Below, piece after piece: positions 53,102 to 57,948 of a stretch of 64,000 nt of DNA. This stretch comes from Acidobacteriota bacterium (GTDB lineage Bacteria > Acidobacteriota > Terriglobia > Terriglobales > Acidobacteriaceae): positions 1 through 64,000 of the forward strand of contig JAJYSV010000004.1 in assembly GCA_021793405.1 (NCBI GenBank), written 5' to 3'. Numbering within the stretch: the stretch's first letter is position 1; every line of letters begins with the position of its first letter. The position numbers and the translations under genes were made by a program. The notes under the pieces were generated by a model that saw only the letters and a program-made list of their open reading frames with translations, did not search any database and was not told the DNA's origin.

Positions 53102-54643
53102 CTACAACGCCGAAAGCAGCGTGGATGAGGCTGGCTGCGCAGGCGGTAACTTCAATTCCGGCATAGGCTTGGCTTCAAACAACTTGCGACATGGAATGGC
53201 CAGCCAGTGCGCCATTCGACTCGCCTTTTGCCGGCGCGCACTGTCGGTTGCGATGCCGGTTTTCGCGTACATCTGGCGATATAGTTTTGAGATAAAGACG
53301 AAGGCGAGACGGGCCCGCAGATTGGGCGTGCATCTGGACCGCTCCCAGATAGCGGACATGCTGTAGAACTCGTCCCAAACACCCTGAGTTCGCCGGCGGA
53401 TCTCCTCCGGGGACATCGTGGCATGAGGAGTAAACACGTTGGGCCTTACTTCCGCGGGGATCAGCCAATACCGAGTAATGGGAATTCCATGCACCTTCGG
53501 CACATCGGTTCCCATGCTTTTTTCCCAGCGGTCGAAGTCGATCGCCCCCGGAAGAGGCGTCAGTAACACAAATTGCGCGAAGCTTAGGCCAGCTCGCCTG
53601 GCCAGTTCCGCAGTGGCGGCAAATGTGTCTTCGCGATCCGTGGAAAGGCCAAAGATAAACGAACCCAGAATATAAATCCCATGTTGCTTAAAGGTTTGGA
53701 GCCGCTTTGCCAAACTGTCGCCGACAAGATTGAAATCTTTGAAGATAGCCTTGAGACCTTCCGGAGTAGCTGACTCCACGCCCACCAACGCGCCACTGAT
53801 GTGCGCTTTCTTCATGGCATCCAGATATTCGATATCTTCGCCCGCCTCCATGGTGATTTGCGTGAAAAACACCATATCCTTTGGAAGTTGTGCCAGCTCA
53901 CTCATTAGCTCGAAACGTTCCGCTCGTATACTCTGCAGTTCCTGAACACGGCCGGTGTTTCCTTGTTTCTCGGCCAAATGAAGATCTCGCAGGCTGACGG
54001 GATAAAAATTGTCATCTGCCAGGAGAACAAAGCGGAATCCGCGACGCCGAAGGTCAACGATTTCTCTGACGACCGTCTCGCAGGAACGAGGGCGAGGTTT
54101 TTGCCCGTCGGTGCGCCAAACCGAACAAAAAGAGCAATGCTTGGGACACCCGCGCACAGTCTGCACAGACGCCCACATGTATTTGTCGCGCGGAGCCAAG
54201 TCCCACCGCGCCGGCAGAAACTGATCGCCTGGCAGACGTCCGCCTTCGTAGACCTCGCGCGCAGCGCCGGCAAGCAAGTCCTCGATCACCTTCCCCCAAA
54301 TTCGATCACCATCTCCCTTCACTACCGCGTGAGCACCGCCCAGACGAAGCGCTTCCTCCGGATACAGGCTCGCATGCACGCCTCCAAATACAACATGAGC
54401 GCCTCTCTCGCGGGCCATTTTTCCCAGGTGCATACCTCGGAGAGCGTTGCTGGTGTGAATACCGATGCCAACCACATCGCCGGACTGCACCGTTTCCGGC
54501 CGAAACGGTGCAAGTGTCTCATCCGCGATGATCGGGTCTCCAAATTTTTCCGGTGTGGCAGCAGCCAGAACGTAAAGCCATCGAGGTGTGATCACCCCGA
54601 TTCCAAAGGATTTATCGCTGGGATTGATTAGATGTACGCGCAT
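53102..54643 (-). CDS. B12-binding-domain radical SAM protein (paralogue 2)
   Basis: A 513-residue paralogue of the 51300-52856 product with the same layout: MRVHLINPSDKSFGIGVITPRWLYVLAAATP at the start, a B12-binding domain with the GDVVGIGIHTSNALRG turn, and the radical SAM motif GCPKHCSFC. Start ATG 54643 aligns exactly with the paralogue; the longer open frame upstream does not. Amino-acid differences concentrate in the N-terminal 130 residues and the last 15. A TATAAT-like -10 (54730-54735, minus strand) upstream suggests a possible own promoter. It lies 176 bp after the TonB receptor gene. Confidence 0.88.
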   Translation of the reverse strand: MRVHLINPSDKSFGIGVITPRWLYVLAAATPEKFGDPIIADETLAPFRPETVQSGDVVGIGIHTSNALRGMHLGKMARERGAHVVFGGVHASLYPEEALRLGGAHAVVKGDGDRIWGKVIEDLLAGAAREVYEGGRLPGDQFLPARWDLAPRDKYMWASVQTVRGCPKHCSFCSVWRTDGQKPRPRSCETVVREIVDLRRRGFRFVLLADDNFYPVSLRDLHLAEKQGNTGRVQELQSIRAERFELMSELAQLPKDMVFFTQITMEAGEDIEYLDAMKKAHISGALVGVESATPEGLKAIFKDFNLVGDSLAKRLQTFKQHGIYILGSFIFGLSTDREDTFAATAELARRAGLSFAQFVLLTPLPGAIDFDRWEKSMGTDVPKVHGIPITRYWLIPAEVRPNVFTPHATMSPEEIRRRTQGVWDEFYSMSAIWERSRCTPNLRARLAFVFISKLYRQMYAKTGIATDSARRQKASRMAHWLAIPCRKLFEAKPMPELKLPPAQPASSTLLSAL

Positions 54644-54819
54644 CGACGTGCTTTGCCTTCGTAACTTTCCTGGATTCAGGGAAGTGGATGCGGTTTCGCA
54701 TTCATCCAGGAAGCGGAATCGTGCCACCTATTATAGATTTAATAGATGCGCTCGATGTAGTTTTTTGTTGTCGAACATGCAGATGCGGCAACAAGAAAAA
54801 ACAGCGATGAGCATTTCAC

Positions 54820-57396
54820 TCAGCGGACGGAATCACCACCCCAGGCAAACTGCAAGCCGGACCGGAAGTTGAACGGCAGCGATGGATAGCCGAATACCTG
54901 TTGGTAGTGTTGACTCAGAAGGTTATCCATCACCGTGTAGCTGGAGACATGCCGGTTGACGCGGTAGTGAACGGTCAGCCCAATATTCTGGTAGGCCGGA
55001 TCGAGATTGCGATTCGGCAGCAGCAGCGTCGAGCCGCCATTGGCATCCAGCAGAAATGTACTGTCATCGCGCCGCCCGGAAAAATTCCCTGTCATCTCCA
55101 TATACCAACGAGGACGGGCATAAATCACCTCGAAATAGCCAGTGTGCTGGGCGCGCCGGAAGGGACGCTGACCCACCAGCGGCGAGTACGCTCCAATCGG
55201 AGTATTCGGATAGGCCGGGTTGTACGACGGATACGAATTGTCGCTGGTATACGACTTTTGCACATTCGCGTTCAGAAGTGTGTACCCGCCGCGCGCGTAC
55301 AGACGCTGCGTCACGCGATACTCGGCGCTGGTCTCGACTCCCTGGGCGCTAAAGCTGAGGGAATTGATGTAAGCACCGAATGAAGTGTTGGAGATTACCT
55401 GTTCGATAGCCTGGGGGACGCCCAACTGCAGGAGGGCGGGTGCATCGACAAACTCGATCTGATTGGTGAAGCTGCTGCGATAATACCCGCCGTGGAGCAG
55501 GGCCCGGGTTCCCAGAACATTCTGGTCAAGGCCGGTCTCGTAGGTACTGGTCTGCTGCGCTCCTACGGGATTAATCCCATGCTGGGCGAGGAGTTGTTGA
55601 CCGTTGGGGAGAGAGTTCAACACGTCGTAGATGGAGCCGCGCTGCTCGGCAATGGTTGGTTCCAAAATGCCCTGCGAGTAATTGAATCGGAGTTTGGTGC
55701 CGCTTAAAAGGCCAGCAGCAGTAGGCCGCGTTAGATAGTACGCTGCCGTCGCATGAGGCGTGGGCTGGAAGCCAAATACAGAATAGTTGGGAAGATCTGT
55801 TCCGGCGCTGTAGTACAAACGATTTCCAAGATTGCCGAACGTCTGCACAATGTAGTCGTAGTTGCCGCGACTCGCGGACTGCGGAAGATAATCGTAGGCT
55901 GTATAGCCGCGTTCTGAATCGTAGCGAAACGCGCCTAGAACCGTCAGCTTGTCGCTGTTTTTGTACGTGGTTTGTCCATAGAAAAAATCGTGATTCGTCA
56001 AGGTCCCATCGGTTCCGGGATAGCTGGTGTTGGGGCAGGCATAGAAAGCCTGGCCGCTGGCGCTGGTTCCATTTGCGCCGCGAATCGTCACCGGCAGTCC
56101 AAGATATTCCTGCGTCACGGGATTCCCCTGATTGTCATATCCGCAATTGTTCACCGCGTTCGGATTCGCTACCAGCACGCCGACGGGCGCCGGATCCGTA
56201 TTCAGAGAGCGCAATCGCACCAATCCATACTGGGCCGTCATGTCCAGCTTGTCACTCTGCCGATCTTCAAGGGTGGCGCTGCCGTAGAGGTCGTGATCTT
56301 TCAAGTACTGCACGTCGGGAATGCCGTAGAAGAGAATGGCATTCGGCTCGCCCGTAGCGGCGGACACGCGATGCGCGGTCGCGCGGAGTTGCACGCGCGG
56401 CGTGAGGGCGTAGCCCACGTTGGCCACAGAAGAAGCGTTGTGGAATGTGCTGTTGGGATAGCTGTTGGAAGTATCGAGGCGCGCGAAGTCACCGAAATAA
56501 TCCAGCGCCTTATGCGTGCCGCCAAGCGAGGCTTCCTGATGATACGTTCCGAAGTTGCCCGCATCGATGGCATATTGCAGCAGCGGCTTGGCGGTGGTGC
56601 CACGCGAAGTGGTCAGCGCCACCACTCCAGCGGACGCATTGGCTCCATACAACGCGCTGTCGGGCCCGCGATACACCTCCTCCTGACTGATGCCGTTGGC
56701 GGGGAGATACGCAAAATTTACCCCGCCGCCAATGTCGTTGATCGGGATGCCGTCGAGCAAGACATCCGTGGCGTTTGAGTCGCCTCCCATTTCGAATAAT
56801 GAGGTGGCAGCGCCGCGCTGACCGTTGGTCGCAAACTGCAATCCGCTGACCCGGCGCAGCGTGTCCTGAACATCGAGCGCGTACGGATATAACGACTGAT
56901 CGACGATGGTTGTCGAAGCGCCCGTCTGCGTCTGAGGTGTGGGGATGCCGTTGGCGGTGACCGTCACCTTCTGCTCCAACTGCCCGAACTGGAGCGCAAT
57001 ATCTACAAACGCGGTCTTGCCGAGGGAAACATACACTTCGGGGCTCTGAGTAACGTTGAAGCCCGTCGCCACAACGCGCACTCGATAGCGCCCGGAGCGA
57101 TAGAGGAAAAGTGAATATTGCCCGCGTCCGTCGGTATGCCCATGCGTCGGCAGCATGATGCCATTCACCGTGAGAATGTCGACGCGCGCGTTGTAGACCG
57201 CTGCTCCCAGCGGATCTGTCACGGTTCCGGTCACTGTGCCCGCCTCCGTTCTCGACGCGGCCGCGGCGGCGATCGCGGGCTTCGGCGACGTGAGGCAGGT
57301 TGAAACGCACAGGACAAGCGTGACACAGAGCAACAGGCGTCGAATCGCGGAAAAGCGTGATCGGGATGGAGCCGGAAGCAGGCGCGAAAAAAGCAT
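54820..57396 (-). CDS. BtuB-like TonB-dependent outer-membrane receptor
   Basis: An 858-residue receptor from ATG 57396, with ribosome site GAGGGGA (57404-57410). A signal sequence is followed by a carboxypeptidase-regulatory-like domain (GTVTGTVTDPLGAAVYNARVDILTV... SLGKTAFVDIALQFGQLEQKVTV), a plug domain (QDTLRRVSGLQFATNGQRGAATSLFEMGG... DVLLDGIPINDIGGGVNFAYLPANGISQEEVYRGPDSALYGANASAGVVAL) and a long barrel of ~22 strands ending FRSGLQFAWGGDSVR. The two cobalamin riboswitches immediately upstream indicate that it imports corrinoids. No TonB, ExbBD or BtuF is encoded nearby. Confidence 0.9.
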   Translation of the reverse strand: MLFSRLLPAPSRSRFSAIRRLLLCVTLVLCVSTCLTSPKPAIAAAAASRTEAGTVTGTVTDPLGAAVYNARVDILTVNGIMLPTHGHTDGRGQYSLFLYRSGRYRVRVVATGFNVTQSPEVYVSLGKTAFVDIALQFGQLEQKVTVTANGIPTPQTQTGASTTIVDQSLYPYALDVQDTLRRVSGLQFATNGQRGAATSLFEMGGDSNATDVLLDGIPINDIGGGVNFAYLPANGISQEEVYRGPDSALYGANASAGVVALTTSRGTTAKPLLQYAIDAGNFGTYHQEASLGGTHKALDYFGDFARLDTSNSYPNSTFHNASSVANVGYALTPRVQLRATAHRVSAATGEPNAILFYGIPDVQYLKDHDLYGSATLEDRQSDKLDMTAQYGLVRLRSLNTDPAPVGVLVANPNAVNNCGYDNQGNPVTQEYLGLPVTIRGANGTSASGQAFYACPNTSYPGTDGTLTNHDFFYGQTTYKNSDKLTVLGAFRYDSERGYTAYDYLPQSASRGNYDYIVQTFGNLGNRLYYSAGTDLPNYSVFGFQPTPHATAAYYLTRPTAAGLLSGTKLRFNYSQGILEPTIAEQRGSIYDVLNSLPNGQQLLAQHGINPVGAQQTSTYETGLDQNVLGTRALLHGGYYRSSFTNQIEFVDAPALLQLGVPQAIEQVISNTSFGAYINSLSFSAQGVETSAEYRVTQRLYARGGYTLLNANVQKSYTSDNSYPSYNPAYPNTPIGAYSPLVGQRPFRRAQHTGYFEVIYARPRWYMEMTGNFSGRRDDSTFLLDANGGSTLLLPNRNLDPAYQNIGLTVHYRVNRHVSSYTVMDNLLSQHYQQVFGYPSLPFNFRSGLQFAWGGDSVR

Positions 57397-57420
57397 AGAG
57401 TATCCCCTCGGATGGGTGGC

Positions 57421-57569
57421 GTGAAGCCGGTCTCCTGACTTGCGCTTCCTCAAGCTCGGGCGCCTTCCCAGACGATTACGTCCAGTGGTTGCGGAATGCC
57501 ATGCCCTGCTCTCGCGCTTACAGTTACGGGGTAGTGGCGGAGTTGCACCGCGCTTCCCGACACTTCACG
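57421..57569 (-). promoter_or_regulatory. Cobalamin riboswitch, proximal copy
   Basis: Read on the minus strand it contains the core GGGAAGCGCGGTGCAACTCC, the CCCCGTAACTGTAAGCG segment, CCACTGG and TGGGAAGGC, and ends with the B12 box GCAAGTCAGGAGACCGGC. The closing stem GTGAAG (57568-57563) pairs with CTTCAC (57426-57421). Its 3' edge is 11 nt from the receptor's ribosome site (57404-57410), so translational occlusion on B12 binding is likely. Confidence 0.9.
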
Positions 57570-57754
57570 GGTGGTGAAACCTTACGCCTGCCGCGCACAG
57601 CACGCAACCAAGCGCCGGAAGATGCGTGTCCCAATGGTGCAGGGAAAACGCAGCCCTGGAACAGCATGGAGCGGGAATGCGTACCTCGGCCGCAGTTGGG
57701 TCGAAGCGCGCGCCCCTTCGGTCCTTCCCATCGCGACCGAAAGACAGCTAAGAA

Positions 57755-57912
57755 GTGACCCTGGCCGGTCTCCTGACTTGCGCGTCATCGAGCCTTAGGC
57801 ATACCTTCCCAGACTTTCGTCCAGTGGCTGCGTACCGCCCTGCCTTGCTCTCCGCGCTTACAGTTACGGGGTAGTGGCGGAGTTGCACCGCGCTTCCCGA
57901 ACACCATGGGCT
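57755..57912 (-). promoter_or_regulatory. Cobalamin riboswitch, distal copy
   Basis: A second complete riboswitch with the same conserved elements: GGGAAGCGCGGTGCAACTCC, CCCCGTAACTGTAAGCG, CCACTGG, TGGGAAGG and the B12 box GCAAGTCAGGAGACCGGC (near 57780-57763). Its core is almost identical to the proximal copy over about 45 bases. It is closest to the promoter, so both copies lie in one 5' leader. The 185 bases between them hold no gene. Confidence 0.88.
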
Positions 57913-57919
57913 ATAGAGA

Positions 57920-57948
57920 TATATATCGAGATCAAATCCCGCCGTCAA
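57920..57948 (-). promoter_or_regulatory. Sigma-70-like promoter for the riboswitch leader
   Basis: On the minus strand TTGACG (57948-57943), a 17-nt spacer and TATATA (57925-57920). Transcription would start about 57913, at the 5' edge of the distal riboswitch. Confidence 0.65.

Follow-up and report, generated by a model that had tools for sequence, protein, structure and literature searches.

Two cobalamin riboswitches lie in series on the minus strand of the window (the whole stretch of 64,000 nucleotides analyzed here), where they precede a gene for a TonB-dependent receptor. A cmscan search of the whole window returned exactly two matches to RF00174, each spanning the full length of the model (positions 1-189) and each scoring far above the gathering score of 31.5 bits (Table 1). 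The two complete tandem copies announced in a preliminary description of this DNA are thereby borne out, the spans given there (57421-57569 and 57755-57912) falling within the two Rfam matches and neither copy failing to score as a riboswitch. Because both lie on the minus strand, the match with the higher coordinates is the upstream copy (U) and the other the downstream copy (D). The B12 box (AGUCAGGAGACC) claimed for each copy was found in U and D, as was the conserved core, by cmscan alignment and repeat analysis, and both copies carry a P6-type peripheral arm, CCACUGG...GGGAAGG. A large peripheral arm of the P6 type is a mark of the AdoCbl class of cobalamin riboswitches, and U and D are predicted to bind a ligand of the adenosylcobalamin type. 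The near identity of the cores is equally real, with a 48-nt block repeated without a difference at a spacing of 340, accompanied by further repeat blocks of 38 nt (82%), 30 nt (90%) and 11 nt (100%). A search of the whole genome to which the window belongs, that of a member of the Acidobacteriaceae, a family of soil bacteria (100% complete, 0.85% contaminated), found no third cobalamin riboswitch.

Table 1. Coordinates of the features at the tandem riboswitch locus.
Feature	Position	Strand	Evidence or remark
Helix-hairpin-helix protein, 112 aa	58075-58413	minus	upstream neighbour
Promoter-like site TTGACG-17-TATATA	57920-57948	minus	adjoins U on its upstream side
Upstream riboswitch aptamer U	57746-57923	minus	RF00174 88.1 bits, E 2.1e-20 (Rfam bounds)
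U platform hairpin, candidate P13/L13	57715-57743	minus	loop AUGGGAA; covariation in relatives
Conserved AUUCCCGCU element of U platform	57670-57678	minus	[AU]UCCC motif count in relatives
Linker between aptamers, 146 nt	57600-57745	minus	spacing from Rfam bounds
Downstream riboswitch aptamer D	57408-57599	minus	RF00174 95.5 bits, E 1.6e-22 (Rfam bounds)
D platform mini-hairpin AUCC-GAGG-GGAU	57402-57413	minus	contains Shine-Dalgarno sequence
TonB-dependent receptor, 858 aa from ATG	54820-57396	minus	PF07715 Plug (57.6 bits), PF13620
Radical SAM protein, next gene	53102-54727	minus	PF04055 E 2.3e-13; PF02310 27.5 bits, cut-off 32.1

The sequence scans also agree with the proposal of a single promoter ahead of both copies. 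One promoter-like site precedes U, and across the 14 tandem loci described below a looser scan placed a site scoring 9/12 or better ahead of U in every case (about 25 nt from the Rfam start of U in 13 loci and about 60 nt in G006), and no linker among the 14 reached that score (best 8, in G025), so that no separate promoter between the copies came to light. A strict scan, which demands a T in the last position of the second hexamer, gave no promoter in the window's region and missed even the site ahead of U. Transcription would be expected to start near 57913. Between the two promoter hexamers lies an inverted repeat (GGGATTTGATCCC-like; window 57926-57942) that occupies the same place in relatives of the genus, and in G025 the sequence between the hexamers is a different one, likewise palindromic; this palindrome is a possible operator. 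The helix-hairpin-helix gene is found upstream of the tandem across the genus and in two further genera. Within the linker of the window, no intrinsic terminator and no open reading frame of at least 80 aa were found on its strand. Folding of three linkers gave no signal beyond shuffles (z -0.94 for that of the window), and the window's linker folded alone favours a structure in which the U hairpin is opened and which may represent an alternative state.

Downstream, the D aptamer stops 11 nt short of the ATG of the receptor, whose Plug domain supports the preliminary identification of a TonB receptor behind the pair. The receptor is 44% identical, over the aligned part, to that of a relative's locus with the order U-cobU-D-btuB-cobT (L097) and is likely to be btuB, the B12 importer, as riboswitch control and the linkage to btuF, cobU, cobT and cobS in relatives suggest transport of cobalamin. 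The radical SAM gene that follows is possibly carried on the same transcript.

Expression platforms of the two riboswitches

The platform of D is the simpler of the two, with the Shine-Dalgarno sequence occupying the loop and stem of the mini-hairpin (CCGAGGGG). By raw counts, made without a shuffle control, pair 1 of this hairpin forms in 24 of 28 distinct leaders, pair 2 in 23 (A-U 7, U-A 14, C-G 2) and pair 3 in 13. Hiding of the Shine-Dalgarno sequence is the usual translational mechanism at btuB, and the anatomy of D suggests the same, in that ligand binding would stabilize the fold that hides this sequence and so turn translation OFF. A CCGAGGGG-like motif also stands behind both members of a pair of cobalamin riboswitches of another subtype, situated 3.6 kb apart on one strand of the related genome G003 (L035 4259-4452 and 8047-8241).

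The platform of U is of a different kind. It begins with a hairpin whose loop is AUGGGAG in most relatives and AUGGGAA in the window. We aligned 32 of the 36 U hairpins (25 distinct), omitting those of the window (G000) and G009b for a one-base insertion, that of G156 for its shorter loop and that of G009a as a near duplicate, and found 98.9% of the cells paired. Changes on both sides occur in six of the seven pairs, a level attained by 6 of 500 shuffles, and the covariation score of 0.664, against 0.366 in shuffles, was matched by none of 500; the number of further pair types was unremarkable, with 71 of 500 shuffles equally high. Of the 36 U platforms, 33 have an [AU]UCCC motif no more than 110 nt beyond the hairpin segment, mostly at 15-55 nt, compared with 8.25 expected by chance and a maximum of 14 in 200 shuffles, in a count that treats near-identical genomes as separate. 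The UUCCC element is complementary to GGGA of the hairpin loop. The P13-like hairpin itself covaries, and its loop, a candidate partner of L5, is nearly invariant. RNAalifold applied to the cobU platforms (17 of 18 leaders) pairs GAGC past the hairpin with GCUU past UCCC, and we count this as no evidence because the positions hardly vary. Inspection by eye revealed no Shine-Dalgarno sequence in the U platform. Together, the covarying AUGGGAG hairpin and the UUCCC element point to a conserved AdoCbl expression platform in which neither a terminator nor a Shine-Dalgarno site is obvious. At one locus (L089 5624-5797) such a platform stands before a 233-aa open reading frame that by eye resembles BluB.

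The tandem and its components in relatives

Among 61 genomes around that of the window, a same-strand pair less than 500 nt apart is present in 8 of 10 from the genus, 3 of 27 from the rest of the family and 1 of 24 that are more distantly related, counts that are lower bounds owing to stricter filters. Rescans and further loci bring the tandem to 14 loci in 13 genomes of four genera (G000, G002-G007, G009 with two loci, G021 and G117, G025, G032 and G122), with gaps of 131-173 nt. The named tandem genomes are metagenome bins, and one G009 locus matches that of G003 almost exactly and may have entered through a binning error. The tandem of G057, from a more distant family, is without the U platform and was treated as independent and left out of the 14; its locus (L045) combines the same-strand pair with a third, divergent copy, and no AUGGGAG hairpin follows the upstream copy. 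The genome G001 carries a divergent pair of another type. In G007, D has an insertion of about 100 nt in the peripheral arm and scores 53.9 bits (L039 4112-4401), and U is intact.

A pattern scan for the U platform across a named-genome collection of 84,980 species returned 36 stretches, 30 of which contain a cobalamin aptamer according to Rfam. The six without one comprise L077, three stretches that look like chance matches in coding sequence (L076, L083, L084), and two that seem to be truncated 3' remnants of U with the hairpin, lacking an aptamer above the Rfam threshold (L074, L107). Pooling the pattern scan with earlier loci, we found that an alignment to CobU begins 116-155 nt after U in 18 loci, and that a second same-strand aptamer follows further downstream in 14 of these. 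A common order in relatives is U-cobU-...-D-btuB, with the D type leading into btuB. In nine of these 14 loci the aptamers are separated by cobU, a cobB-like gene and btuF, in one by cobU and a cobB-like gene, and in four by cobU alone; we write cobB-like because the CbiA and GATase_3 domains do not separate CobB/CbiA from CobQ/CbiP. Pfam domains agree with these names at three loci, L080, L101 and L097. At L101 they indicate CobU, a CbiA/GATase_3 protein, a periplasmic binding protein and the TonB receptor; at L097, CobU, the receptor and a CobT-type phosphoribosyltransferase.

An even draw of 160 genomes from the family gave matches to the U pattern in 26, one of which (G155) we took as chance, its matched letters being the same as those of the coding locus L084. 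The window's genome itself escapes the pattern because its loop reads UGGGAA. Of the remaining 25, 12 have CobU directly behind U, including G143, where CobU is only a partial match below the cut-off, and 13 have no CobU in the assembly. The latter consist of nine U-D-btuB tandems, two cases of U directly before btuB (G156, G175), one of U before btuF with no CobU found (G132, L120) and one cut by a contig end (G152). A U platform directly before btuB also occurs in JOPF024. A search for CobU in 15 genomes, the 10 of the genus and 5 tandem genomes of other genera, found none, and CobT and CobS were absent from the same 15 except G002, which keeps both. Absence of CobU alone proves little because the protein is uncommon in the family anyway: it is above the cut-off in 21 of the 160 genomes, and three comparison genomes without the U platform are without CobU as well. 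Moreover, several tandem or U-only assemblies are 71-85% complete, which makes single absences weak. The telling point is that genomes with a U platform split into those with cobU right behind U and those in which cobU was not found. The window's genome encodes an adenosyltransferase of the CobA/BtuR type (PF02572), none of the PF01923 type, and six B12-binding domains above the cut-off, the transferase and binding domains fitting a cell that would import B12.

Origin and output of the pair

We consider it probable that this is a btuB leader with two AdoCbl-type riboswitches in series, formed when the leaders of cobU and btuB were joined through loss of the genes between them. On this account, a U leader and a D leader would have come together when cobU, alone or along with the cobB-like gene and btuF, was lost from the interval, and U would have been retained by selection for its continuing action on btuB. 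That the direction of change was loss of cobU is our inference from the arrangements in relatives. The BtuB tree, built from available pieces, some of them partial, separates the two arrangements by a single unrooted change, and a single clade of the tandem type was not rejected (p-AU 0.151, with three distant single-riboswitch rows omitted from the test); a single insertion of cobU would therefore fit too.

The preliminary description had read the near-identical cores as a sign of recent duplication or conversion, and recent duplication does not stand. The tandem is spread over most of the genus and three other genera, and in a FastTree phylogeny of the aptamers all nine of the genus's U copies cluster together, as do its nine D copies, with the same U-U and D-D pairing in two other genera that have two tandem genomes each. 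The pair therefore predates those genera. In this tree supports are not printed, nine aptamers without a clean core are omitted and four non-tandem rows have shortened cores. Nor is the identity of the core a sign of recency, because four non-tandem aptamers come within one or two bases of the shared 48 nt: the D aptamers of JOPF067 (one base) and of G028 and bin_225 (two each), and the U aptamer of Paracidobacterium acidisoli (two). Aptamers of other relatives differ more in the core.

An older event is harder to set aside. A local tandem duplication of the btuB riboswitch, followed by gene conversion and, in another branch, by insertion of cobU, would account for the identical 48-nt core and for the fact that the U and D groups of the genus adjoin in the aptamer tree, rather than U standing beside the cobU-type U. 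It would also suit the U platforms found directly before btuB in JOPF024, G156 and G175, and the BtuB tree is neutral on direction. A palindromic insert is the same in U and D of G003, G004 and G009a (with one base different in D of G009a), a further point in favour of such a history. We nevertheless judge it somewhat unlikely. Plain duplication of one riboswitch would not give the different platforms of U and D, and that of U is the platform of cobU leaders; the separate grouping of U and D holds in all three genera with two or more tandem genomes, and the core comes almost unchanged in aptamers outside tandems. Old or partial conversion between U and D is possible, given the adjoining groups and, in agreement with them, the shared insert. 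The insert, CCCGCCG(C/T)GGCGGG-like, occupies one and the same position of the peripheral arm, in U and D alike at L034, L036 and L041 and in D only at L037 and L038; it could be either a small repeat element or a trace of conversion. That a palindromic repeat (CCCGCCGYGGCGGG) caused the tandem was rejected, the repeat being absent from the window.

Whether U still contributes is a separate matter. It has no gene of its own and no recognizable terminator in the window, and the truncated remnants L074 and L107 may show what an unneeded U looks like, all of which would suit a functionless, decaying relic of the cobU leader, with D alone in control of btuB. Conservation makes this improbable. Across leaders from six of the nine loci in the genus, U has a mean pairwise column identity of 0.89, the U hairpin 0.88 and D 0.87, whereas the values are 0.53-0.61 in the rest of the linker, 0.66 in the promoter region, 0.46 at the start of btuB and 0.09-0.39 in 10-nt blocks of the non-coding sequence that precedes the promoter. 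Because U is conserved as strongly as D, it probably acts on btuB, a conclusion for which the evidence is good, if indirect. The series in the genus g24 points the same way: G032 has U and D; G122 has an intact U and a damaged D of 47.5 bits, which has lost its peripheral arm and carries a changed B12 box; in G156 and G175 U is the sole aptamer before btuB and is followed by the Shine-Dalgarno hairpin of D (L112 3597-4053, L113 3581-3850 and L114 for G122, G156 and G175). Judged from these sequences, it is D that is the decaying copy in this genus, whereas U remains.

Two further arrangements would give U a function of another sort. If U and D formed a cooperative dual aptamer, binding ligand cooperatively and serving one common expression platform, the narrow range of spacing in the 14 loci would be explained; each aptamer, however, has a conserved hairpin of its own and each type is found alone before a gene in relatives, making such a device very improbable. 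U might also control a short reading frame, opening at the NUG of its loop, that affects btuB; uORFs are reported at B12 riboswitches of M. tuberculosis (PMC11260477). Reading from the loop gives 49-58 codons in eight of nine genus loci, and for all 36 U platforms this frame has a median length of 25 codons, compared with 17 for the two alternative frames. Yet the frame has just 13 codons in G002 and 14 in G021, ranges from 6 to 85 codons outside the genus with three cases lacking a stop in the 200 codons read, varies in the first base of its first codon and is preceded by no Shine-Dalgarno sequence discernible by eye. We rejected this frame because it is not conserved, and control of btuB through it has very little probability.

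With the fusion of two leaders by gene loss as the preferred reading, plentiful B12 would act through both riboswitches to turn btuB OFF, a direction that we infer. The inherited cobU-leader platform of U would comprise the conserved hairpin with its AUGGGAG loop, a variable hairpin, and the UUCCC element able to pair with the loop. In cobalamin riboswitches the L13 loop of the platform kisses L5 of the aptamer, as set out in PMC9600662, and our working model is that U would switch between L5-L13 kissing and pairing of L13 with UUCCC. Since the start codon lies about 350 nt downstream, the output of U is more readily pictured as transcriptional (e.g., Rho-dependent termination) than as translational. 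The fuller reading, in which the tandem arose by gene loss and not by duplication and btuB is under a two-mechanism AdoCbl switch with U acting on transcription and D on translation, is one that we put forward tentatively. As a part of it, the family would have kept the successive stages, from the cobU operon through partial loss to the tandem, the decay of one copy and a single copy again.

Comparison with known tandem riboswitches

In most discussions, tandem riboswitches figure as designs that sharpen a response. For this locus a sharper or two-level response, as suggested in the preliminary description, is plausible. If the account given here is true, gene loss can also bring a doublet about by accident, and the doublet can then persist since both leaders still work. 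The relatives then form a natural deletion series, with U and D, U with a damaged D, and U alone, that bears on what a second copy adds.

Enterobacteria have a single RF00174 riboswitch of the translational type before btuB. The locus shares with them the aptamer, its place before btuB and, for D, the expected hiding of the Shine-Dalgarno sequence, and differs in having two aptamers in series.

Tandem AdoCbl riboswitches as a kind are already known. A survey lists 26 AdoCbl doublets among pseudo-cooperative riboswitches (PMC9481103), and PMC12452182 names cobalamin among contiguous classes already characterized. The tandem loci of Acidobacteriaceae may be among the 26. In the open-licence literature we found no description of this locus or its arrangement, nor of an AdoCbl doublet whose platforms differ or a tandem formed by gene loss. 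Like the homotypic AdoCbl tandems of the survey (PMC9481103), the present pair consists of two complete riboswitches of the same class with no gene between them and one open reading frame downstream; unlike them, it has dissimilar platforms, one of the cobU type and one of the btuB type, with no intrinsic terminator found between, and we explain it as the leaders of two genes brought together. The bi-mechanism tandems outlined there (e.g., SAM-II/SAM-V; PMC9481103) likewise combine an expected common ligand with two suspected outputs, whereas here both aptamers belong to one class and a second mechanism is only suspected, for U. Glycine tandem aptamers (PMC9481103) similarly place two aptamers of one class in one leader; these share a single platform, in contrast to the locus described here, where each aptamer has a platform of its own.
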